Assembly (NCBI GenBank): GCA_039033415.1
Contig: JBCCCR010000019.1
Location: 62,001 to 126,000, forward strand
Source of the DNA: Pseudomonadota bacterium
GTDB lineage: Bacteria > Pseudomonadota > Gammaproteobacteria > Xanthomonadales > SZUA-38
Direction: 5' to 3'
Length of the DNA stretch: 64,000 nucleotides
Part shown: positions 1 to 36,217 of the stretch, piece by piece
Numbering within the stretch: the first letter of the stretch is position 1
Layout of the letters: every line of letters starts with the position of its first letter
Position numbers and translations under genes: made by a program
The notes under the pieces: model-generated
Database searches by the model: none
Told to the model about the DNA's origin: nothing
The model's input: the letters and a program-made list of their open reading frames with translations, nothing else

Positions 1-934
1 CCCGATGTCGGAGGTCAACCAGCCGGCTGTCCGGCCACGAAACCAGCTTAAAGCGGCTTTGGGCCGGCACCTGCATGCCGTGCGTCACCTCCAACGCGTG
101 GCCGGATAAGCCGCTGGATTCCTCGCTGGCCAGCCAGGTGATGGTGTCCGCGACGTTGGTCGGCGTGGGGTAGCGAAAGTCCAGCTGCCCGTCGTCGTCC
201 GCCTTTTTGACGGTCATCAGCCCGCGGAAATGCTCTGAAGTGCTTCCCGACTCGAGCTGCTGCAGCTCGTCCATGGCGGCAAACACGGTGTCGATGCGTT
301 CCGACTTGATCGGCCCAGGGAACACCGTGTTGACCCGCACCGCCTGTCTACTGGGGCCGAGCTCGCGCGCAAGGCCCAGCGACAGGGCGTTCAGCGCCGA
401 CTTGGGGACAACGTACGGGATCCGACCGAAGTATGGCGTGCGAGAGAATATGGTTGATACGTTGATCACCGACGCGCCGTTCGACAGTCGGGGCAGGGCG
501 GCTCGTGTCATATTCCAAGGTCCGCCCAGCAGGTTCATGCAGGCCTCGAAGAGCGTCTCCGCATCGCCGATCTGCAGTTTCTGGTCCTCGCTGAACGGGA
601 TGTGCTCCAGCGTTTGTTTTGGGCCCGCGCCGCCGGCATTGTTGATCAGGACGTCGATGTCGCCAAAGTGTTCGGTTGCGGCGCCAACCACGGCTTCGCA
701 GTCGGCGGGCACCGCGCAGTCACCCGCAGCACAAAGGATGCTGGAAGCGTCAAATCCCTCTTCGACCAGCTGCTCGGCCAGCTCTGTGAGCTTTTGTTCC
801 GTGCGGCCGTTCAGCACAACCCTGGCGCCCTCCTGGAGCAGGTGGCGGGTAATGTGGGAGCCGATATTGCCGGCGGCTCCGGTCAGAATGATGTGGCGGC
901 CGGTGAGCCGGCCAGTGCTGATTGATTCGCTCAT
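1..934 (-). CDS. mcr: Malonyl-CoA reductase, N-terminal part (truncated by window edge)
   Basis: About 311 residues are visible; the rest lies left of base 1. The N-terminal half is an SDR domain with the nucleotide motif TGAAGNIG near residue 19 and an active-site YVVPK following INVSTIFSR. From memory, the stretches VINVSTIFSR, GRIPYV.PK.ALNALS, VNT.FPGPI and EVTHGM match the Chloroflexus aurantiacus bifunctional malonyl-CoA reductase much better than generic SDRs. In that enzyme this half reduces malonate semialdehyde to 3-hydroxypropionate and the C-terminal half (not visible here) makes the semialdehyde from malonyl-CoA. The ATG at 934 overlaps the pcs stop codon as ATGA, implying translational coupling. 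A separately encoded N-terminal half cannot be excluded, since the C-terminal half is outside the window. Confidence 0.85.
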   Translation of the reverse strand, partial: MSESISTGRLTGRHIILTGAAGNIGSHITRHLLQEGARVVLNGRTEQKLTELAEQLVEEGFDASSILCAAGDCAVPADCEAVVGAATEHFGDIDVLINNAGGAGPKQTLEHIPFSEDQKLQIGDAETLFEACMNLLGGPWNMTRAALPRLSNGASVINVSTIFSRTPYFGRIPYVVPKSALNALSLGLARELGPSRQAVRVNTVFPGPIKSERIDTVFAAMDELQQLESGSTSEHFRGLMTVKKADDDGQLDFRYPTPTNVADTITWLASEESSGLSGHALEVTHGMQVPAQSRFKLVSWPDSRLVDLRHR

Positions 935-3900
935 CGGAGGGTCCCTGCTGATCCCGTATCCACCTGTTCAAAGTCTTCGCCTCGGGCCTGGGCCTCAGCG
1001 ATGGCCCATGCGCGGTAAAGCTCGTCGCGGGTTTTGAGCCCCATCCGAGGCAGCGCGTGCAGCGCCACGTAGGTGGCTCCCTCGTGGCGGTTTTCCCACA
1101 TCGCCTGGTGCGCCGCAGCCACCTCGTCGAAGGCCACCGGCACCGGCTCGACGACGTCGATCATGCCGGCAGCGATGCGCTCCTGAACCTCGCTGAATTC
1201 GCGAGCCGTATTGAGATGGGTTCCACGGATTTCGGCGGTTGGCATCAGGATGCGTCGTTGCCGCATCCAGACCTGCGGTGCGTAAAAACTCAGGCGGCGG
1301 CCGCTTAAGCTCTCGCTGTAAACCACCTTGCCTGTGTTCGGTTTAACCAGCGACGTGGACAGCGCCAGCGAGTCGCGGCCGCGGCGCTCGAACACGACGT
1401 CCGGCAGGCCCCGCCGATCCATCGTGTTGCGCAGCAGCGGCCCAATCGCTGAGCCGATGGGCTTCAACGTTCGGTCGGAGAAGCGGCGCACGGCCTCCTT
1501 GAAGCTCGGTGACTCGGTAAAGGGGTCGGGCATTGGGGCCAGCGGACCCGGCGGATCAAACTCGTCACCCAGCCGACGCTGAATCTGCTCGACGCTGACC
1601 ACGCCGGCGAGCTGCGCACCGAAGCCCAGCGAGGTGACGAACTCGCGCTGCTCGATCGTATCAGCGAGCACCGCTACCCGGGCGCCGATGGCGCAGCCGG
1701 CCTCGATTGCCTCGATGCCTATCGGGTCCACCACACCGTCTTCCGCGCCGGGACCGTAGATCACCAGGAGCGACTGGCCAGCCCGCAGCCGGGCGCGACG
1801 CAGCGTTTGGGGCACTTCCTCCTCACCGCTTTTGCCCATAAACGAAAAACGGTAGCCCGTTGAGGCGCCAAAGAAGGTCAGAATGCCGCCGTCACCCAAT
1901 AGCTGGAAAGAGCGGCCGAAGGCTCGTTCGCCAGCGTGCGACACCACAAAGTCGAGCGGTCCACCCACCTGGCTATGTGCCTCGTTCACAAAGGTCTCGC
2001 CCGCTTGCTCCCAGGCGTCCCAGCCCTCCGGCTCATCCGGCACGGGCGTAAAGATCGTCGCCCAGCGAGGGTCTTTACGGTTGATCGCCACGCCGCCGAG
2101 TGACGCTACCCGCGATGCCCGATCGTCTGAGGAGACCATCCCCAACACGCTCAGCCCGCTGCTGCGGGCGCTGCGCAGACATTCAAGGCCTGTGCCGGTT
2201 GAGGCGCCCTCAACGAACAGGCGGGCACCGGCGTGTATGTCGAGCGTGTGGTAAAGCGCGCGGTGAATGGTGCCCTGGGTCAGGCCGTAGGCGCCGGCCT
2301 GTTCGATGGTCAGCCCGGGCAGCTTGGCGTGGAGCTGCGGGCCCTGCACCACGAGAAACTGCGCGTGGCTGCCGTCGTTACGTTCGTAGCCCTGGATGCG
2401 AAAGTCGGCCGCCATCGGGTCCAGACCCTGGTCGGGTGACAGCAGCTCGCTCTGGCCGGAGTAGATGGTAACCAGCTGTCCGACGGACAGCCGGCCCTCA
2501 CGCGCGAGCTCGGCACCCAGCTGAGCGATGATCGCCACGCCGCCCGAACCGGTGACCTGCACGTCCACGTCGCGGGCATCAAACGGTGACACCGGGATGC
2601 CGGTGATGGCCCAGATGTCGTTGAAGTTCAGCTCGGAGGCCAGCACGTAGACCAGCGCATCGTTGGGCCCAGGCTCAGGCGTATCGAAGACCAGCAGGCG
2701 CTCTGCCTCAATCGGGTCGCCGTGATCCGGCGCGCCGTCTTCAGGCCGTTTGATCACTCCGAGGCCGTACTGATAAGCCGGAACCGAGGTCACACCCGGG
2801 AAAAAGCTCGCTCCAAGCGGCAGCAGCTCGCCCTCTGCCTCGAGCTGCCGGCGAGTGGCCTCGTCAGCGTCGGGCGGCACCGCGGTCTCGCGAACCGGCA
2901 GCGGGTTGCTGCGTCGCTCCAGAAACGCCCGGATGCCGATTGGACCCGCGGCCGGATCGCAGACGCCGTCAGCGAACAGACCCGCCTCGGTCTTGAGGCC
3001 CGCCGCCTGGCCCTGCGCGGCGCCGACCGACGTGGCCTTGAGGATCCGTTCGACGGCGCTACCGCGATCACCGGCGTGAGCCTGCTCCACCACCTGCTTC
3101 AGGCGGCCCGACTCGAGCCAGGCCGGATCGAAGGGCAGGGGCTTTTCCCGATCTTTGAGCTGCTGGGCGCGCGCGGCGGCAACCGCGACCAGGGGCCCCT
3201 CGCCCTGGATGAGCCCTCGAACCCGATCGACCGCGGTCTGGACGACGCCAACAGCGCCCGACTGCTCGTCTGCCAGGCCGAGCGCCAGCGCCCGCTCGAC
3301 GTCCACCGAGCGACCGCTGATCATCATGTCCAGCGCAACCCGAATTCCGTCTTCGCCCTGGCGCTCGTAGAGCTTGCGGGTCAGGCGCTGGGTGCCACCA
3401 TAGCCGGGCAGCAGGTTGAGGTTGATTTCCGGCTGACCAAAAACCGCTCGCGGATCGGCCACCACATAGCTGCAGGCCAGCACCAGTTCATTGCCCCCGC
3501 CCAACGCCGGGCCGTTGACGGCCGCGATGACCGGAACCGGGAGATTTTCGAGCGCGGAGAAGGCGGTGTGAGCCGCGTTGGCGGGCGTCTGCGCACTCTC
3601 GCGGTCACCGGCTTCGCCAACCTCCAGGAGCTCTTTGACGTCAGCGCCGGCCACAAACGCGTTGCCGGCGCCGGTGACCACCACCGCCGCGACGCCCGAC
3701 TGATCCTTCAGGTGCTGCAGCACCGTGTTGAGCTCGTCGAGCGCCCGTTCATTCAGAGAGTTCACCGGCGGGTGGCTGATCGTCAGCACCACCACGCTGT
3801 CCGTTTCTGTGAGCTGGTGGGTTTCGACCCGCAGGTAGCGGTAGGTCTGGACAATCTGCCGAGCGTCAGCCAGGCGTCCGAAGGCGCGCCACTCGGCGAC

Positions 3901-6342
3901 GGTGGCCGCGATTTCGTCGACCACCTCGGGATTACGCAGGGTGGAAAGATCCCCCAGCGGTTCGTCCAGCAAAATCGCGCGAAGCGTGCGGCGCATGTAC
4001 TTGCCAGACCGCGTCTCGGGAAACGCTGAAACCACCAGAAAATCCGACGGCACCGCGGTCACACCCTTCTCGGTTTTGACCAGACCCTTCAGTCGTGCCA
4101 GGTCGTCATCGGACAGCCGGCCACCGGGGGCGGGAATGACAAACGCCACCGGCGTTTCACCTTTCTCGGTATGGGGTGCGCCGACAACCACGGCATTGCC
4201 CAGGGGTGACTCGGTGTTCAGGACCTTGTCCCGGAGAATGGCACCCTCGATTTCTTCGGTGCCAATGCGATGCCCCGATACGTTGATGACGTCGTCAGAG
4301 CGGCCGTGCAGCGTGACGCTGCCGTCGTCATGCTGCCGGGCAAAGTCACCCTGGGTGTAGGCCAGACCATCGCTCCAGCGGCTGAAGTACACCTCCGTAA
4401 AGCGTTCGAGGTCGCCACACCAGCCGGGCTCGCCGAGCGCCTCGCCGTTCCCCCAGATCGTCCTGGCCAGGTAGGGGTAAGGCTGCGTGATGACCAGCTC
4501 ACCCTTTTCCCCCAGCTCGGCGGGCCTCCAGTTGGGTTCACCGGGCGCGGGCTCATCGACGGCAACGCGCACCTCTGCCTGGATCCAGGGTAGGGGCCAG
4601 CTCTTCGCGTCCGCCGCCAGCGCGTGGACGTCTCCCCACGGGCAGCTCAGCACCATGCCTCCGTGTTCGGTAGCCCAGTATGAGTTGATGTAGCGGCTGC
4701 AGACATTCTCCATCGCAAACTGCTGGACCGCCGGCGACACGGGCTCAGCGCAGAAGGTGGCAACCTTGAGACCCGCCATGTCGAAGGTGGCCATGTCCCG
4801 GGTGCTGGCCGGATCGGTCATCACCGCTTTCAGAAACGTTGAGCCAGCTTTAAAGATGCGCGCGCCGTGGCGCTGAATGATCGAAGAAAAGCGACCGGCG
4901 TGCGGAAACAGCGGAGAGCCCTCAACCACAATAGAGGTGATGCCCAGCGCAAAGGGTGCGGCAATCAGGTACGACTGTCCGGTGATCCAGCCTGGGTCGG
5001 CGATCACGTAGATCCGGTCCTCAGGCTGCGCGTTGAACACCATCCGCATGGTGTGCGTGATCCCGGCGAGCCAGCCGCCGTGGGTGTGGACCACCCCTTT
5101 GGGTTTGCCGGTGGAACCGGAGGTGTAAATGATGAACAGCGGCCAGTCGGCGTCGACCGGCTGCGCGGGCTGGATCCGATTCAGCGTCGACCACAGTTCC
5201 GTGTCCTCCAGCTGATCGAGTGAGTCCAGATCGCCGGCCTGCGTGAGCAGCACGGCCGCCGCGTCGGAAACCAGATCGGCCGACCACCGGTCGCGCTTTT
5301 GCTGGACGATGTCCTGCCCGGTGTGCCTGACCACCACCACCGTCTCCACCACGTGGGTGACTTGGGACAGGCGCCGGGCGACGCTGGTGCGGATACGGGC
5401 GGTTTGGGTGGCACCCAAGGCTGTGGCTTCGGTGCCGCGCAGACTGCGGCCCAGTTCGCGCATGACGTCGCTGCGCTCGATGGTGATTTCCCCACGCAGC
5501 GCGGCTTCGACCTGCTCGTGAATATGGGTTGCCAGGTCGCCGAGCTCATGCTCAGCGAGCACCTCGGCGAGGGCGTCCAGCGCAGCCGGCAGCGGCACGT
5601 AGTTGTCCAGCGCCGGATCGGCATAAGTCTCCTTAAACGGGACAACCTCAGCATTGCGATAGCCACCGTCCGCTGTCACAACGACGCGAGCGCCCGCATC
5701 GCAGATCCGGTCGGACAGTGTCTTGGCCGAAAAGCCGCCAAAGACCGGGGTGTAAATGATGCCGAGGCGCTTGGCCGCCTCGGTATAGAAAATCTGCTCC
5801 GGGATACTGGGTAGATTAAACGCCACCCGGTCACCCTTTTTGAGACCGAGCGAGCTCAAGACCTGGGCGCGAACAACCGTCTCGACAAAAAACTCGCGAT
5901 AGCTATGGCTGCGCTCCTGAACCGGTCCGCCCTGACCATTGTTCAGGGAGGGGTCCCAGCGGTCGCCCTCAAACACAAAAGCGGTATGGGCACCTCGGCC
6001 CGCCAACAGGTGCCGATCAATTTCGTTGAAGCAGGCATTCGTGAGGCCCCCGCTGAACCAGCGGTAGAAGGGGGCCTGCTCGTCGTCCAGCGCGTTGCGC
6101 CAGGGCTGCCAGCCCGGGTCGCGCGCTTTGTCTACCGGATCGCCGTTGGCTGCAGCAAAGCCGGACCAGCTTCCGGTGTTGGGGTCTGCCTTAAGCCAGT
6201 TATCCTGCTCGGGGTCGAACCAGTGAAGTTCGCCGGCCGCGATGCGACCGTGAAACTGGCCAGGATCGTCGATGGCCTCTTGCCTGAGGACCTGCTCGTC
6301 AGTATTTCCAAGCGTTCCCCAATGCCCGTTCGCCTGCGCCAT
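931..6342 (-). CDS. pcs: Propionyl-CoA synthase (trifunctional, 1803 aa)
   Basis: One polypeptide with three domains in the order and length of Chloroflexus propionyl-CoA synthase. (1) Acyl-CoA (3-hydroxypropionyl-CoA) synthetase, about residues 80-800, with YTSGSTGKPKG at 406-416, YWATEHGG at 555-562, GRSDDVINVSGHR near 680 and the adenylation lysine in SGK (K781). (2) Enoyl-CoA hydratase, about 845-1100, with the two crotonase glutamates E952 and E972 at the usual 20-residue spacing. (3) A zinc-independent MDR enoyl-CoA reductase, about 1180-1770, with GASTGTGLE at 1379-1387. Together these convert 3-hydroxypropionate, CoA, ATP and NADPH to propionyl-CoA through an acrylyl-CoA intermediate. 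The start ATG is preceded by AAGGGG. It is the upstream gene of a coupled pair with mcr. No frameshift or missing catalytic residue was seen. Confidence 0.95.
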   Translation of the reverse strand: MAQANGHWGTLGNTDEQVLRQEAIDDPGQFHGRIAAGELHWFDPEQDNWLKADPNTGSWSGFAAANGDPVDKARDPGWQPWRNALDDEQAPFYRWFSGGLTNACFNEIDRHLLAGRGAHTAFVFEGDRWDPSLNNGQGGPVQERSHSYREFFVETVVRAQVLSSLGLKKGDRVAFNLPSIPEQIFYTEAAKRLGIIYTPVFGGFSAKTLSDRICDAGARVVVTADGGYRNAEVVPFKETYADPALDNYVPLPAALDALAEVLAEHELGDLATHIHEQVEAALRGEITIERSDVMRELGRSLRGTEATALGATQTARIRTSVARRLSQVTHVVETVVVVRHTGQDIVQQKRDRWSADLVSDAAAVLLTQAGDLDSLDQLEDTELWSTLNRIQPAQPVDADWPLFIIYTSGSTGKPKGVVHTHGGWLAGITHTMRMVFNAQPEDRIYVIADPGWITGQSYLIAAPFALGITSIVVEGSPLFPHAGRFSSIIQRHGARIFKAGSTFLKAVMTDPASTRDMATFDMAGLKVATFCAEPVSPAVQQFAMENVCSRYINSYWATEHGGMVLSCPWGDVHALAADAKSWPLPWIQAEVRVAVDEPAPGEPNWRPAELGEKGELVITQPYPYLARTIWGNGEALGEPGWCGDLERFTEVYFSRWSDGLAYTQGDFARQHDDGSVTLHGRSDDVINVSGHRIGTEEIEGAILRDKVLNTESPLGNAVVVGAPHTEKGETPVAFVIPAPGGRLSDDDLARLKGLVKTEKGVTAVPSDFLVVSAFPETRSGKYMRRTLRAILLDEPLGDLSTLRNPEVVDEIAATVAEWRAFGRLADARQIVQTYRYLRVETHQLTETDSVVVLTISHPPVNSLNERALDELNTVLQHLKDQSGVAAVVVTGAGNAFVAGADVKELLEVGEAGDRESAQTPANAAHTAFSALENLPVPVIAAVNGPALGGGNELVLACSYVVADPRAVFGQPEINLNLLPGYGGTQRLTRKLYERQGEDGIRVALDMMISGRSVDVERALALGLADEQSGAVGVVQTAVDRVRGLIQGEGPLVAVAAARAQQLKDREKPLPFDPAWLESGRLKQVVEQAHAGDRGSAVERILKATSVGAAQGQAAGLKTEAGLFADGVCDPAAGPIGIRAFLERRSNPLPVRETAVPPDADEATRRQLEAEGELLPLGASFFPGVTSVPAYQYGLGVIKRPEDGAPDHGDPIEAERLLVFDTPEPGPNDALVYVLASELNFNDIWAITGIPVSPFDARDVDVQVTGSGGVAIIAQLGAELAREGRLSVGQLVTIYSGQSELLSPDQGLDPMAADFRIQGYERNDGSHAQFLVVQGPQLHAKLPGLTIEQAGAYGLTQGTIHRALYHTLDIHAGARLFVEGASTGTGLECLRSARSSGLSVLGMVSSDDRASRVASLGGVAINRKDPRWATIFTPVPDEPEGWDAWEQAGETFVNEAHSQVGGPLDFVVSHAGERAFGRSFQLLGDGGILTFFGASTGYRFSFMGKSGEEEVPQTLRRARLRAGQSLLVIYGPGAEDGVVDPIGIEAIEAGCAIGARVAVLADTIEQREFVTSLGFGAQLAGVVSVEQIQRRLGDEFDPPGPLAPMPDPFTESPSFKEAVRRFSDRTLKPIGSAIGPLLRNTMDRRGLPDVVFERRGRDSLALSTSLVKPNTGKVVYSESLSGRRLSFYAPQVWMRQRRILMPTAEIRGTHLNTAREFSEVQERIAAGMIDVVEPVPVAFDEVAAAHQAMWENRHEGATYVALHALPRMGLKTRDELYRAWAIAEAQARGEDFEQVDTGSAGTLR

Positions 6343-6448: not shown

Positions 6449-7408
6449 CTATCCTGCTGAGGCGGCTTCGCGGGCTTTGCGCCGGCGCTTTGCCGCGACA
6501 AACGCCAGGCCCTGGGCGTTGAGCTCCAGGTCCATGGCCATCAAATCACGATAGAGCTGTCGATCGCTCGCGCCGCGGTCCTTAAGCACCTGATCAAAGT
6601 ACGTGTCCAGCCGCTGCTTGATCATCGACTCCAGCTGGTCGTCGGGATGCCCGGACGTCTCGGCTTCGAGCATCAGCGCCTCAGAAAAAGCCAGGTGCGC
6701 CAGCATCTGCTCACCGCGCTGGCCAATCTCGTCCAGCGGCCCAAAGTGGGTTGGATAGATGCAGCTGGGCTTCAGCGACACCAGGCGCTTCACTGACTCG
6801 CGCGCCAGCGGCCCGTCAAAGTCCGTCGGGCTCGTGGAAGGAAAGGCAAACGGGCCGTCAGCCTGCAGGGCCGGGTAGTGGAGCCCGAAGGCGTCCCCGG
6901 TGAAGATGCTGTGGCTGGCGCTGTCGACGATACAGAAATGGTGATTGGCATGGCCCCGGGTGTGCAGGAAGGTGAGCGTGCGCTGACCAAAAGACAGCGT
7001 TTCGCCGTCCTCCATCTCCCGGACTCGTTCTGCCGGCACGGGTTCGATGGTGCCGTAGAGCTTGTCGAACGTCTCGGCGCCGTAGACGGCCCTCGCGCTG
7101 CCGACCAGGCGTTCCGGGTCGATCACATGTCGGGCTGCGCGTGGGTGTGCGACCACCACCGCGTTGGGGCAGGCCTTGAGCAGCGCCGAGGTTCCGCCGG
7201 CGTGGTCTAGGTGGACGTGGGTAATGACCAGATATTTGACGTTCTCGGGCGCCAAACCCTCCGCCGCAAGGTGCTCCAACAGTGTCGGGACCGCCAAAGC
7301 GGTGTTGTTGTCGATGAATGCCGCCTCATCACCCTCGATCATGAGGTAGGCCGCAGCGACCAAGGGCTGCCCCGCGTAGTGGCAGTCGATCGTGATAATT
7401 TTCTGCAT
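6449..7408 (-). CDS. Metallo-beta-lactamase-fold hydrolase
   Basis: 319 residues from the chosen ATG at 7408. The open frame extends 55 codons upstream, but the family domain begins with MQKIITIDCHY and the upstream residues look non-coding. The zinc motif THVHLDHAGG (H64, H66, D68, H69), a later GHANHH and the ITGDAF-like SIFTGDAFG give the MBL order of metal ligands. A helical C-terminal region of about 100 residues follows the domain. The substrate is unknown; this subgroup includes thioesterase-like and lactonase-like enzymes. It follows pcs on the same strand about 100 bp upstream of it, so co-transcription with pcs/mcr is possible but unproven. Confidence 0.8.
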   Translation of the reverse strand: MQKIITIDCHYAGQPLVAAAYLMIEGDEAAFIDNNTALAVPTLLEHLAAEGLAPENVKYLVITHVHLDHAGGTSALLKACPNAVVVAHPRAARHVIDPERLVGSARAVYGAETFDKLYGTIEPVPAERVREMEDGETLSFGQRTLTFLHTRGHANHHFCIVDSASHSIFTGDAFGLHYPALQADGPFAFPSTSPTDFDGPLARESVKRLVSLKPSCIYPTHFGPLDEIGQRGEQMLAHLAFSEALMLEAETSGHPDDQLESMIKQRLDTYFDQVLKDRGASDRQLYRDLMAMDLELNAQGLAFVAAKRRRKAREAASAG

Positions 7409-7520
7409 ATCGATACTGTTACCGCCACGCCTGAAAAATGCAATATCGTCGGTCTTAGCTGGATGCTGGGCGGCCAATCCCCTACAATTTAGCCTTAGTT
7501 TTTGGGCGGCAAAGCCTTCG

Positions 7521-8093
7521 ATGAAAGCAAGCAAACGCGATATTTTCTGGTTCGCAGCACTCGCTGCGCTCATGCTGGCAACCCGTGGAAATCTTCTGGG
7601 GACGATCGTGCCTGTACAGCTGCACGACGCGTCCTGGGCGGCATTTCTGCTGGCGGGCGCGGTGCTGAGAAAGCCGGTGTACCTCGCGTTGCTGGCGACG
7701 CTGGCGCTGGGACTGGATTACGCAGCACTGTGCGCCGGCAGCCTGGATCTCGCGGGTTGCCTTAAGCCTTCCTACCTGACGCTCCTGGGAGCGTGGGCCA
7801 TGCTCTGGGTGGCGGGCCGCATGATCCGCACCGGCAGCTGGGACCTGGCGACCGCCGGTCGAAACGTGCTGCTGGTGCTCGCCGTAATCACGACTGCTTA
7901 CGTGTTGACCAGCGGTGGCTTTTATCTTTGGTCGGGCCACTACGAGGCGTGGTCCATCACCCAGTTCTGGAACATGAGCGCGCCGTTCTTTCTGGTGGCG
8001 CTAGGTTCAACCGTGGGCTACACGGCCCTTGGCCTGCTCGCTCAGCAGGTGACGACGTCTTTACCCCGTAGCCGGGAGCCGCTCGCCGGCTAG
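7521..8093 (+). CDS. Small polytopic membrane protein
   Basis: 190 residues from the ATG of MKASKRDIFWF. The frame extends further upstream, but those codons overlap the start of the divergent MBL gene. About five hydrophobic segments are visible, with conserved-looking features LATRG, DASWAAFLLAG, a central CLKPSYL and SGGFYLWSG. It vaguely recalls small integral membrane proteins found near cobalamin genes in Pseudomonas, but I see no B12 gene or riboswitch here, so no function is assigned. No strong Shine-Dalgarno is present. Confidence 0.65.
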   Translation: MKASKRDIFWFAALAALMLATRGNLLGTIVPVQLHDASWAAFLLAGAVLRKPVYLALLATLALGLDYAALCAGSLDLAGCLKPSYLTLLGAWAMLWVAGRMIRTGSWDLATAGRNVLLVLAVITTAYVLTSGGFYLWSGHYEAWSITQFWNMSAPFFLVALGSTVGYTALGLLAQQVTTSLPRSREPLAG

Positions 8094-12084: not shown

Positions 12085-14226
12085 TCAGCCGACGAGGATC
12101 CCGCCGTACTGCACAAAGAAAGGCACAAACACCAGCGACAGGATCGCTGACAGCTTGATCAGAATGTTCAGCGACGGGCCGGAGGTGTCCTTCAGCGGGT
12201 CACCCACCGTGTCGCCGACCACCGCAGCCTTGTGGTTGTCGGTACCCTTGCCGCCGAGATTGCCGGCCTCGATGTACTTCTTGGCGTTGTCCCATGCGCC
12301 GCCGCTGTTGGAGGCGCTGATGGCGAGCACGCCACCGGAAACCAGCGAACCCGCTAGCAGGCCGGCGGTGGCCTGGATGCCAAACAGGAAACCGGTGACC
12401 AGCGGTGCACCCATGATCAGGATTCCCGGGGCGATCATCTCTTTGATGGCGGCCTGGGTGGAGATCGCCACACACTGCTCGTAGTCGGGGTCGCCCGTGC
12501 CTTCCATGATGCCGGGGATCGTTTTGAACTGACGCCGCACTTCCTCGATCATCTTGTAAGCTGCGGAGCCGACCGACTTCATGGTCATGGCGGTGAACAG
12601 GGCCGGCAGTACTGCGCCGATGAACAGGCCGGTGAAGACCATCGGGTCGAGAAGGTTGATGCTGCCCAGGAGGTCAAACTCAGGACCGTTTTCCTCTTTG
12701 AGCAGCAGGTCAGCCCGGGTGAGGAACGCCGCAAACAGAGCCAGCGAGGTCAGAATCGCCGCGCCGATGGCAAAGCCTTTACCCATAGCGGCGGTGGTGT
12801 TGCCGGCGGCATCCAGCACGTCGGTGCGCTGACGCACGTGCTCTTCCATCGAAGCCATCTCGGCGATCCCGCCAGCGTTGTCTGCCACCGGGCCGTAGGC
12901 GTCGATCGTCAGTGCAATCACCAGCGTCCCCAGCATGCCGAGCGAGGCGATGGCCACGCCGTACATGCCGGCGAGCATCCAGGGGATGTAGATGGCCAGG
13001 CCAATCGCCAGGTAGGGGCCCACGGCACTCTTATAGCCCAGCGCTAAACCGAAGATGATGTTGGTTGCGGTACCGGTCTGACACGACTCGGCCACCTCTT
13101 TCACAGGACCGTAGCTGTCCGAGGTGTAGTACTCGGTCAGCAGACCGACCACCAGGCCGGCAATGAGGCCGGTCAAGAAACAGAGGTAAACGCCGAGGTT
13201 GGTGTAGTTTTCGCCGGCGATGGCGAACTCGGCTGGCACCAGCTGCATGGTCACGAAATACATCGCGATGGCCATCAGCACGCTGGAGATGATCAGCATA
13301 CGCTTCAGTGCAGGACCCACCTGACGCTCCAGCGTGACCTTGACCATCAGGATGGTCAGCAGGCTGACCGGGATGCCAATGGCGGAGATCACGATGGGAT
13401 ACAGCAGCGCGTCCACGTTGCCCGCAAAGGCGATCGCGCTGATCACCATCGCGGCGCAGGTGCTCTCGGCGCAGGAGCCAAAAAGGTCAGCCCCCATGCC
13501 GGCCACGTCGCCCACGTTGTCACCCACGTTATCCGCGATGACGGCCGGATTTCGAGGATCGTCTTCCGGGATACCGGCTTCCACCTTACCGACGAGGTCG
13601 GCGCCGACGTCAGCTGCCTTGGTGAAAATGCCGCCACCAACCCGCGCAAACAGGGCGATCGAGGAACCGCCGAGGCCAAAGCCGGCGATCACTTCCATCA
13701 GAATATGCGGCGGGAGCTGCTCGGGCATCACATACTTGAGGCCCAGGTAGATGAGCAGCATGCCCAGGGATGCCAGGCTGACCAGCGCAAAACCCATGAC
13801 GGCGCCGGAACGAAGCGCGAGGTTGAACGCGTCCGACAGCGACTGGTTGGCTGAGACGGTGGTTCGGACGTTGCCCGCGGTGGCGATTTTCATGCCGATG
13901 TAGCCGGAGGCGATGGAAATCACCGCGCCGAAGATAAAGGCGACCGCGGTGTAGATGCCTTCATTGACGTAGTCGGTGTGATGATCGTCGATGAGGATGG
14001 CGATGATGGCGGCAAACACCACCATAAAGATCGCCATAAACTTGTATTCCTGTTTCAGGAACGCCATGGCGCCGGCTGCAATCGCCGCGTGAATTTTCTT
14101 CAGCCGGCCACGGATGCCTTCATCCTCGACGCCCATGTCGATGGCCACTTTGCTCACCGAAGATGAATAGAAAAAGGCGACTGCCAGGCCAAACAGGCTG
14201 AGCGCCAAAACAATTGCTACGGACAT
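12085..14226 (-). CDS. hppA: Membrane-bound proton/sodium-translocating pyrophosphatase
   Basis: 713 residues from ATG 14226 (in-frame ATG alternatives lie upstream, but [10 protein letters not shown] is the usual kind of N-terminal helix). The catalytic signature [11 protein letters not shown] is present, followed by [18 protein letters not shown] and the C-terminal pair of acidic motifs around [16 protein letters not shown]. About 15-16 hydrophobic segments match the family. It couples pyrophosphate hydrolysis to ion export across the inner membrane. [10 protein letters not shown] carries alanine where K+-independent enzymes carry lysine, so it should belong to the K+-dependent subfamily. 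Whether H+ or Na+ is pumped cannot be decided by eye. Confidence 0.95.
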
Positions 14227-14533
14227 GCCCTGTGCTTCTCCAAATGCATAGTCAAAACTGCTGCGCGCCATCCGCAAAAAATCCCCTTGCTAACCTCAAA
14301 AGGGCCCGCAAAGCGTGGATTTCTGGGGGTGGTGCTCCCTGAACTGATTCTGGTTCGACGTCGACGGATCGTGAAAATGCGGCGTTGAACGGCGCGAGAG
14401 TCTACCACAACACGCCTTCGGCCGCAGTGGCTGGGAGGAAAAGATTTCTGGGGAGATTTGGCAGGGGCAACCATCGCTCCGGAGAGCCGCCCGTTCCCTT
14501 CAGCACTCAGCCGGGAGGCTTAGGTTTCAACGA
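14227..14533 (-). other. Intergenic region upstream of hppA
   Basis: 307 bases between hppA and the acetyltransferase gene. It must contain the hppA promoter and the 3' end of the upstream transcript, but I see no clear terminator, RNA gene or conserved ORF. A GGAGAAG about ten bases before the hppA ATG is the likely ribosome binding site. Confidence 0.4.
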
Positions 14534-34045: not shown

Positions 34046-36217
34046 ATGAATCTAACAATCGACGCGCGTTTTCGGCAGTTTGTCGAAACGGAACTGCTTG
34101 CCGATCTGCCCCTGTCCGCCGCTGAGTTCTGGTCGGGTTTGGATCGAATTATCCACGAGCTGACGCCGGTCAACCGGCAGCTGCTGGAGAAACGTCAGGA
34201 GCTGCAGCAGCAGCTGGACGACTACAATCGCGAACATCCCGCAAAAAGCTGGAACGCCGACGCGTACCGACAGTTTCTGGTTTCCATTGGCTATCTGGAA
34301 CCGGCTCCGGCGCCCTTTGAGATCGACACCCAGGGTGTGGACGACGAGATTGCCAAGGTGGCCGGCCCGCAGCTGGTGGTCCCGGTCGACAACCCACGGT
34401 TTGCGCTGAACGCTGCCAACGCGCGCTGGGGCAGCCTCTATGACGCGCTTTACGGCACCAACGTAATTCCCGAAGACGACGGCTGCGAGCGAGCCGGGGG
34501 CTACAACCCGCGGCGCGGTGCTCGTGTGATCCAACGCGCAGCCGAGTTTCTTGATCAGGCGGTGCCGCTGGAAGACGCAAGCTACGCGGACGTGACCGCC
34601 TATCGCATCGATCAAGGCAACAGCCCTGCCATCCTGACGGCCATGCTGGCCAGCGGTAGCTCTACCGGCCTCAAGAACCCCGAGGCGTTTGTGGGCCACC
34701 GGGAGCAGGGAGCGCAGCGCGGAATCCTGCTCAGGAACAACGGACTCCATATCGAGATTGTGATCGACCCCGATCACCCGATCGGCAAGGATGCTTCGGC
34801 AAACGTCGCTGACGTTGTGCTCGAGGCGGCGCTGACCAGCATCGCTGACTGTGAGGATTCGGTTGCGGCGGTTGATGCGGAGGACAAGATTGCGGTCTAC
34901 CGCTGCTGGCTTGGGCTGATGCGGGGCACGCTCAGCGCAACGTTTGCCAAAGGCGGCAAAGACATGACCCGAACGCTGGCCGCCGATCGGGAGTTTGTGG
35001 CGCCGGACGGCCAGACGCTGACCTTGCCGGGACGTAGCCTGCTCCTCGTGCGCAACGTCGGCCACCTGATGACTACCGATGCGGTGTTTGACGCTGAGGG
35101 CAACGAGGTCTTCGAGGGGCTGCTCGATGCGGTAGTGACAGCAACCTGCGCTCTTCATGACTTGAAGCAGCTGGGGACACGCGGCAACAGCCGCACTGGC
35201 AGTGTCTATATCGTCAAACCCAAGATGCACGGCTCGGCCGAGGCAGCGTTTGCCGACAATCTGTTTGCTGCCGTCGAGGATATGCTGGGACTCGAGCGCT
35301 ACACGCTGAAAATCGGCGTGATGGACGAAGAGCGGCGCACCACAATCAACCTCGCGCAATGTATCGCCGCGGTTCGGCATCGACTGGTCTTCATCAACAC
35401 CGGTTTTCTTGATCGCACCGGCGACGAGATCCACACCTCCATGGTCGCCGGGCCGATGCTGCGCAAAGACGCCATCAAGGCTCAACCCTGGATCGGCGCG
35501 TACGAAGACCAGAATGTCGACCTCGGCATCGCCTGCGGGCTTCCCGGAAAAGCGCAGATCGGCAAGGGCATGTGGGCCAAGCCGGACGAGATGCGCGAAA
35601 TGGTAGACAGCAAACAGGATCATCCACTCTCCGGCGCCAGCTGCGCCTGGGTGCCATCGCCAACGGCGGCAACGCTCCACGCGCTGCACTACCACCAGGT
35701 GGACGTCCAGGGTCGGCAGACCGAGCTGGGAAATCGCGAGCAGGCGAGCCTTGAGCATATCCTGACGCCACCGTTCGGGGATCCTGAAACGCTCAGCGCT
35801 GAGGATATCCAGCGTGAGCTGGATAACAATGCCCAAGGTATTCTCGGCTACGTGGTGCGCTGGATCGACCAAGGTGTTGGTTGCTCAAAGGTGCCTGACA
35901 TCAACCACGTGGGTTTGATGGAAGACCGAGCGACGCTGCGCATCTCCAGTCAGCACATCGCCAACTGGCTGACCCACGGAGTTTGTTCCGTGGATCAGGT
36001 CAAAGAGACGTTCCGTCGCATGGCAAAGGTGGTCGATGAGCAGAACGCCAACGACCCGCAGTACACGCCGATGGCGCCGGGCTGCGACGGCGTCGCGTTC
36101 GAGGCTGCGCTCAACCTGGTGCTGGCCGGGACGGCTCAGCCCAGCGGCTACACTGAACCGTTGCTGCACATGTATCGTCGACAAAAGAAGGCTGAGCTGG
36201 CCAAAGCGTTGAGCTAG
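34046..36217 (+). CDS. glcB: Malate synthase G
   Basis: 723 residues, the usual length of the monomeric G isoform. Clear family segments: LLEKRQELQQQLDDYNREH, LNAANARWGSLYDALYGTN, GYNPRRGARVI, TGSVYIVKPKMHG, the metal-site glutamate in VMDEERRTT and aspartate in NTGFLDRTGDEIH, and SGASCAWVPSPTAATLHALHYH. It condenses glyoxylate with acetyl-CoA to malate. It is monocistronic here, with no isocitrate lyase or glycolate oxidase beside it. In a genome with mcr and pcs it offers a route for glyoxylate, but the link is only metabolic inference. Confidence 0.97.
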   Translation: MNLTIDARFRQFVETELLADLPLSAAEFWSGLDRIIHELTPVNRQLLEKRQELQQQLDDYNREHPAKSWNADAYRQFLVSIGYLEPAPAPFEIDTQGVDDEIAKVAGPQLVVPVDNPRFALNAANARWGSLYDALYGTNVIPEDDGCERAGGYNPRRGARVIQRAAEFLDQAVPLEDASYADVTAYRIDQGNSPAILTAMLASGSSTGLKNPEAFVGHREQGAQRGILLRNNGLHIEIVIDPDHPIGKDASANVADVVLEAALTSIADCEDSVAAVDAEDKIAVYRCWLGLMRGTLSATFAKGGKDMTRTLAADREFVAPDGQTLTLPGRSLLLVRNVGHLMTTDAVFDAEGNEVFEGLLDAVVTATCALHDLKQLGTRGNSRTGSVYIVKPKMHGSAEAAFADNLFAAVEDMLGLERYTLKIGVMDEERRTTINLAQCIAAVRHRLVFINTGFLDRTGDEIHTSMVAGPMLRKDAIKAQPWIGAYEDQNVDLGIACGLPGKAQIGKGMWAKPDEMREMVDSKQDHPLSGASCAWVPSPTAATLHALHYHQVDVQGRQTELGNREQASLEHILTPPFGDPETLSAEDIQRELDNNAQGILGYVVRWIDQGVGCSKVPDINHVGLMEDRATLRISSQHIANWLTHGVCSVDQVKETFRRMAKVVDEQNANDPQYTPMAPGCDGVAFEAALNLVLAGTAQPSGYTEPLLHMYRRQKKAELAKALS

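Follow-up and report, generated by a model that had tools for sequence, protein, structure and literature searches.

What do the two key enzymes of the 3-hydroxypropionate pathway, propionyl-CoA synthase (PCS) and malonyl-CoA reductase (MCR), do in a gammaproteobacterium? The question is raised by a stretch of 64,000 nucleotides (contig C19:62001-126000, hereafter the window), in which a first-pass annotation had described a complete three-domain PCS of 1803 residues, an ATGA overlap with the N-terminal part of mcr, a probable gammaproteobacterial host, a 3-hydroxypropionate bicycle that is not closed and a suggested use of the pair in the co-assimilation of acetate, malonyl-CoA or 3-hydroxypropionate. 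We followed up these claims by searching the window genome, a draft of 6.4 Mb and 98.7% completeness, gene family by gene family, and by comparing PCS loci across species.

A domain search found an acetyl-CoA synthetase (ACS)-like ligase, an enoyl-CoA hydratase and an enoyl reductase fused in a single chain, which phmmer aligned over residues 16-1784 with the solved PCS of Erythrobacter NAP1 (6eqo, 1850 aa; 1922 bits). The ligase P-loop TSGSTGKPKG (407-416), the hinge and the A10 lysine (TRSGK, Lys781) are identical in NAP1 and Chloroflexus, both crotonase glutamates (GGGNELVLAC, FGQPEINL) are kept as in these two, and the reductase nucleotide site GASTGTGLE is nearly the same; the catalytic motifs of all three domains are intact. 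The window edge cuts mcr, and leftward extension of the contig recovers the whole gene (C19:59311-62934), whose 1207-aa product matches the full-length structures 8hi4 (1045 bits, residues 8-1207) and 8hjw (981 bits) end to end. The protein has the four SDR domains, the length of about 1200 aa and the two YxxRxxYxxxK sites of a bifunctional MCR, with YFGRIPYVVPK present in SDR1 and YPNRADYSVSK intact in SDR3; this motif has been described before (PMC10470521). The identity of both enzymes is virtually certain.

The mcr start codon (ATG, 934..932) overlaps the pcs stop codon (TGA, 933..931), an arrangement that would couple the translation of the two genes. The same four-base overlap occurs at the loci L013 and L018, while most Halieaceae have a short gap instead. 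There is little doubt that pcs and mcr form an operon, and the description of the pair in the first-pass annotation was borne out in each of these respects. An artefact or misbinning was ruled out, given that the same-genus genome G001 carries the same operon (L018) at 94% identity. The metallo-beta-lactamase-fold gene does not recur beside pcs in other loci and is a putative operon member at most; DNA repair genes lie beyond mcr, and neither flank of the operon recurs elsewhere. A membrane H+-pyrophosphatase gene, likewise not a recurring neighbour, lies 5.7 kb from pcs; as the AMP-forming PCS releases pyrophosphate, this enzyme could recover energy.

Table 1. Features of the window that bear on the pcs-mcr operon (window positions, or PCS residues where stated).
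Feature	Position	Strand	Remark or evidence
pcs, propionyl-CoA synthase, 1803 aa	931..6342	minus	ATG start; ORF, domain searches, phmmer, motifs
PCS, ACS-like ligase domain	residues about 16-814		
PCS, enoyl-CoA hydratase domain	residues about 841-1130		
PCS, enoyl-CoA reductase domain	residues about 1180-1790		zinc-type
mcr, first 311 aa of the bifunctional malonyl-CoA reductase	1..934	minus	
ATGA overlap, pcs stop / mcr start	931..934	minus	read directly from the sequence
Metallo-beta-lactamase-fold hydrolase	6449..7573	minus	upstream of pcs, on the pcs strand
Membrane H+-pyrophosphatase	12085-14277	minus	
Malate synthase G (glyoxylate shunt)	34046..36217	plus	outside the operon, bears on its function

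The nearest genome is G001, a MAG of the same genus named 'Lysobacterales bacterium isolate IP29b_bin.149', and, judged from this nearest named relative, the host belongs to the Lysobacterales, in line with the gammaproteobacterial placement made earlier. A search for photosynthesis genes, which the first-pass annotation had proposed, turned up a complete type II photosynthesis gene cluster (contig C8:28095-54000; L101, L102) that, being beyond the window, had escaped that annotation. The cluster comprises pufL, pufM, puhA, bchX, bchY, bchZ, bchC, bchI, bchD, bchO, bchL, bchN, bchB, acsF and ppsR, each above the curated cut-off of at least one model, together with puhC. AcsF is the oxygen-dependent cyclase. 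No member of the RuBisCO family was found in the 98.7% complete draft. Because it has a type II reaction centre, bacteriochlorophyll genes and AcsF, and no RuBisCO, the host is, by gene content, almost surely an aerobic anoxygenic phototroph. Its PufLM forms a branch of its own (best identity within the set 73%), in a tree whose backbone is too weak to tell whether the operon and the photosynthesis cluster moved together. The two lie on separate contigs, and the fetched pcs flanks of other genomes hold no photosynthesis genes except one BchD-like match at L060, so the notion that pcs belongs to the photosynthesis cluster was dropped.

The enzymes needed to carry propionyl-CoA onward were also found. 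A methylmalonyl-CoA mutase (1272 bits) adjoins a gene for the MeaB chaperone, and the same contig encodes a carboxyltransferase nearest to the beta chains of propionyl-CoA carboxylase (PCC), beside an unusual biotin carboxylase; the assignment of this carboxylase as PCC-like is by homology. There are accA/accD-like matches, and the remaining two large carboxyltransferases lie in apparent terpenoid and, by inference, leucine degradation clusters. Together with the operon, the PCC-like carboxylase and the mutase complete the gene set for a route by which acetyl-CoA and two CO2 would yield succinyl-CoA. Acetate assimilation does not depend on mcr-pcs, because isocitrate lyase is encoded as well, along with malate synthase G in the window. 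Acetate co-assimilation, as first suggested, is thus plausible, but the operon is unneeded for growth on acetate alone; what it contributes beyond such growth is CO2 uptake and NADPH consumption, and a CO2-coupled, reductant-consuming role fits it better than mere acetate assimilation. As to the ethylmalonyl-CoA pathway, a genome search with PCS as query gave no second match over the PCS reductase part, and the pathway was set aside since no close crotonyl-CoA carboxylase/reductase was seen in this search.

The first-pass annotation had held that such gene pairs are few in proteobacteria, which did not stand: one species-level scan with a PCS profile gave 336 candidate stretches in GTDB species that encode a PCS relative, and the top 80 of them were retained. 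In the PCS tree, an analysis that the annotation had also called for, the window protein falls within the PCS clade. The two outcomes named there as refuting the annotation, a pcs outside this clade and an MCR with an unrelated C-terminal domain, were thus both looked for and not seen. There are two deep clades, with haloarchaea and Aneurinibacillus apart. The first contains Halieaceae, Woeseiaceae, two Myxococcota, a Longimicrobiales MAG and the window, and the second Sphingomonadales, Steroidobacterales/Nevskiales, Betaproteobacteria, Rhodopila and Gemmatimonadales, with Chloroflexota deeper. At bacterial loci outside Chloroflexota with enough contig, mcr adjoins pcs almost without exception; it is the sole pcs neighbour that recurs across lineages (52/74 loci), and MCR and PCS distances correlate (r = 0.95).

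Reaction-centre genes (Photo_RC) are present in 45 of about 53-55 PCS genomes, a set of related best matches to the query that is neither random nor independent, and in 7/369 Gammaproteobacteria of an evenly drawn sample. A reaction centre is present in 39/42 genomes in which mcr adjoins pcs, as compared to 0/6 genomes outside Chloroflexota in which it does not (Fisher 7e-6, indicative only, as kinship is ignored and genomes entered the set for their similarity to the window); leaving out two loci with flanks of only 1-1.5 kb gives 0/4 (Fisher 2e-4, with kinship again ignored in the similarity-chosen set). A strong RuBisCO match (E below 1e-100) was found in no more than 4/53 PCS genomes, and such a match in 3/5 sampled Gammaproteobacteria that have a reaction centre but no PCS. 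Other purple bacteria use the Calvin cycle for redox balance. It is conceivable, though we advance it tentatively and at somewhat less than even chance, that pcs-mcr is a cassette that spread independently of the photosynthesis cluster and serves RuBisCO-less aerobic phototrophs of at least three phyla as a general CO2-fixing electron sink in place of the Calvin cycle.

Several genomes of the set deserve separate mention. The PCS-like proteins of G163 (L015) and G279 (L014), 31-37% identical, were set aside because their ligase and reductase motifs are altered; they come from one gammaproteobacterial family, from genomes with no reaction centre, and point to a different or decayed function. 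L087 (gammaproteobacterium CAR3_bin_15) has a PCS of the window clade (68%), no mcr in 6 kb of downstream contig and no reaction-centre genes, possibly by joint loss of mcr and reaction centre. The Longimicrobiales MAG G438 holds two different reaction-centre gene pairs (C235 and C38), one near that of Gemmatimonas, and is either a mixed bin or a genome with two clusters. G425 and G428 (Woeseiaceae), G430 (Myxococcota), G438 and G452 (Gemmatimonas) combine pcs, mcr and a reaction centre with a mesaconyl-C1:C4 CoA transferase (Mct) that shares 69-74% identity with the Chloroflexus enzyme, so that each is a candidate aerobic phototroph with a complete bicycle. On Myxococcota, passages of PMC10576062 report the Calvin cycle alone.

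Could the host then be an autotroph? A complete 3-hydroxypropionate bicycle, with its second cycle encoded elsewhere in a photoautotroph, would agree with the first-cycle enzymes, methylmalonyl-CoA mutase and the PCC-like carboxylase included, and with the Mct-bearing relatives named above, but it is very unlikely here. The wider search for bicycle genes, also proposed earlier, yielded that carboxylase and no Mct: this second-cycle enzyme was not found at 1e-40 in the window genome, nor in G001, while the weakest Mct of the sixteen other genomes that have one scores 1e-83. The search for Mcl gave a 293-aa CitE-like and a 266-aa aldolase-like protein of the HpcH/HpaI family; both fall short of Chloroflexus Mcl in length and have different gene surroundings. 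The 3-hydroxypropionate/4-hydroxybutyrate (3HP/4HB) cycle, proposed for Luminiphilus (PMC9802188), is an extremely improbable reading for this host. The one HpaB_N match in its genome (L135:5545-7074) does have 4-hydroxybutyryl-CoA dehydratase/vinylacetyl-CoA isomerase as its best solved relatives (307 bits to 1u8v), but it carries Tyr and Ala at Cys103 and Cys299 of 1u8v, which we take to be cluster ligands. It thus lacks two of the four 4Fe-4S ligands and adjoins an MmgE/PrpD protein and a CoA transferase; no ligand-complete dehydratase was found in the window genome. Because both Mct and such a dehydratase are missing, neither cycle is, very probably, closed in the host, as far as a 98.7% complete draft can show for these enzymes and for RuBisCO; the earlier view of an unclosed bicycle is upheld, and the presence of mcr and pcs is no proof of autotrophy. 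The relatives of the dehydratase fall into two types, one (L131, L132, L133) that keeps the cluster cysteines and one, beside MmgE/PrpD, that lacks two of them (L134 of Luminiphilus G441 and the window genome protein), and homology annotation could take the cysteine-poor type as proof of a 3HP/4HB cycle.

Uses of the operon with no special tie to light have also to be weighed. Its product could be propionyl-CoA for polymer (PHBV) or for odd-chain or methyl-branched lipids, as haloarchaeal plasmids with PCS beside a carboxylase and a mutase, and no adjoining mcr, might suggest; a 3-hydroxypropionate route to propionyl-CoA comes up in papers on PHBV in Haloferax. We consider this unlikely, in view of the strong co-occurrence of mcr-linked PCS with reaction centres and of a mutase that would drain propionyl-CoA. 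A further reading, that the cell assimilates 3-hydroxypropionate or acrylate taken up from outside (e.g., from DMSP) and that MCR works mostly as an oxidizing enzyme, is highly improbable. PCS needs no partner to use 3-hydroxypropionate and some lineages have it without adjoining mcr, but where bacterial loci have enough contig mcr nearly always follows pcs directly, the two proteins evolve together, and no transporter or DMSP gene was seen among the operon neighbours tested.

Since a reaction centre is present and RuBisCO is not, the operon is most likely a light-supported reductant sink rather than a means of autotrophy. Acetyl-CoA carboxylase would supply malonyl-CoA, which MCR would reduce to 3-hydroxypropionate with two NADPH; PCS would activate this product with ATP, dehydrate it and reduce the acrylyl-CoA with NADPH to propionyl-CoA, all within one protein, and the PCC-like carboxylase and the mutase would convert propionyl-CoA to succinyl-CoA. 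The net result would be a C4 acid from acetyl-CoA and two CO2, by a route that consumes reductant and co-assimilates CO2 with organic carbon, probably with the support of light. We consider it likely, as an explanation of the whole, that an aerobic anoxygenic phototroph here uses pcs-mcr to fix CO2 onto acetyl-CoA as such a sink, without autotrophy. Light-supported CO2 co-assimilation is probably the main role of the operon, where we infer that the genes are expressed, carry flux and are coupled to light. Points against this explanation are the alternative acetate route through isocitrate lyase and malate synthase G and the distance of pcs-mcr from the photosynthesis cluster.

These results extend the carriers of pcs-mcr to a lineage of Lysobacterales that has photosynthesis genes, and they sharpen a testable idea, that RuBisCO-less aerobic phototrophs turn light-derived reductant into biomass through the carboxylation of acetyl-CoA to succinyl-CoA. 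Should this hold, such bacteria would contribute a real and under-counted carbon flux through light-dependent CO2 uptake. Our literature search found no description of a Lysobacterales/Xanthomonadales phototroph with pcs-mcr; Xanthomonadales pufM from the Adriatic is mentioned in passing (PMC11059731). Full sets of 3-hydroxypropionate genes are reported from photosynthetic Burkholderiales and from Gemmatimonadales (PMC9802188), and the partial set of Kentron symbionts is the reverse one, lacking mcr and pcs (PMC6593406).

Chloroflexus resembles the window in its homologous MCR and PCS with the same motifs and in being a phototroph, but it has mct-mcl-mch, whereas Mct is absent from the window genome, and its mcr does not adjoin pcs. 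The haloarchaeal plasmid PCS is full length and about 51% identical, but has no adjoining mcr and no reaction centre in the genomes tested. Full-length PCS without adjoining mcr is encoded at L016:8923-14358, on other haloarchaeal plasmids and at L070 (Aneurinibacillus); in Natribaculum it adjoins genes for methylmalonyl-CoA mutase, acyl-CoA carboxylase and alcohol and aldehyde dehydrogenases, a setting which suggests that 3-hydroxypropionate or a C3 diol is used.

Erythrobacter sp. NAP1 and Porphyrobacter are closer in organization, as aerobic anoxygenic phototrophs with an incomplete bicycle, full-length PCS and MCR, mcr directly behind pcs and, in NAP1 (L074), a photosynthesis cluster and no RuBisCO. 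Unlike the window, they belong to the other deep PCS clade (about 51% PCS identity), and a distant Mct homologue (42%) is present in NAP1 where the window genome has none. Their key 3-hydroxypropionate enzymes are published, as is a proposed role of these in CO2 co-assimilation, and in the transcriptome of Porphyrobacter ULC335 the 3-hydroxypropionate genes are up by day (PMC10674011). Halieaceae, Luminiphilus and Pseudohaliea (OM60/NOR5) share the deep PCS clade of the window (100*; 63-71% identity), mcr behind pcs, the reaction centre and the lack of RuBisCO, but Halieaceae are of a different order, and some genomes of this type (G427, G442) keep a cysteine-bearing dehydratase relative that the window genome lacks. 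The presence of pcs-mcr in aerobic anoxygenic phototrophs is thus already known from Erythrobacter, Porphyrobacter and Luminiphilus; the present analysis adds the host lineage, evidence that both cycles are open in this host, and the tight link between mcr-linked PCS and phototrophy.
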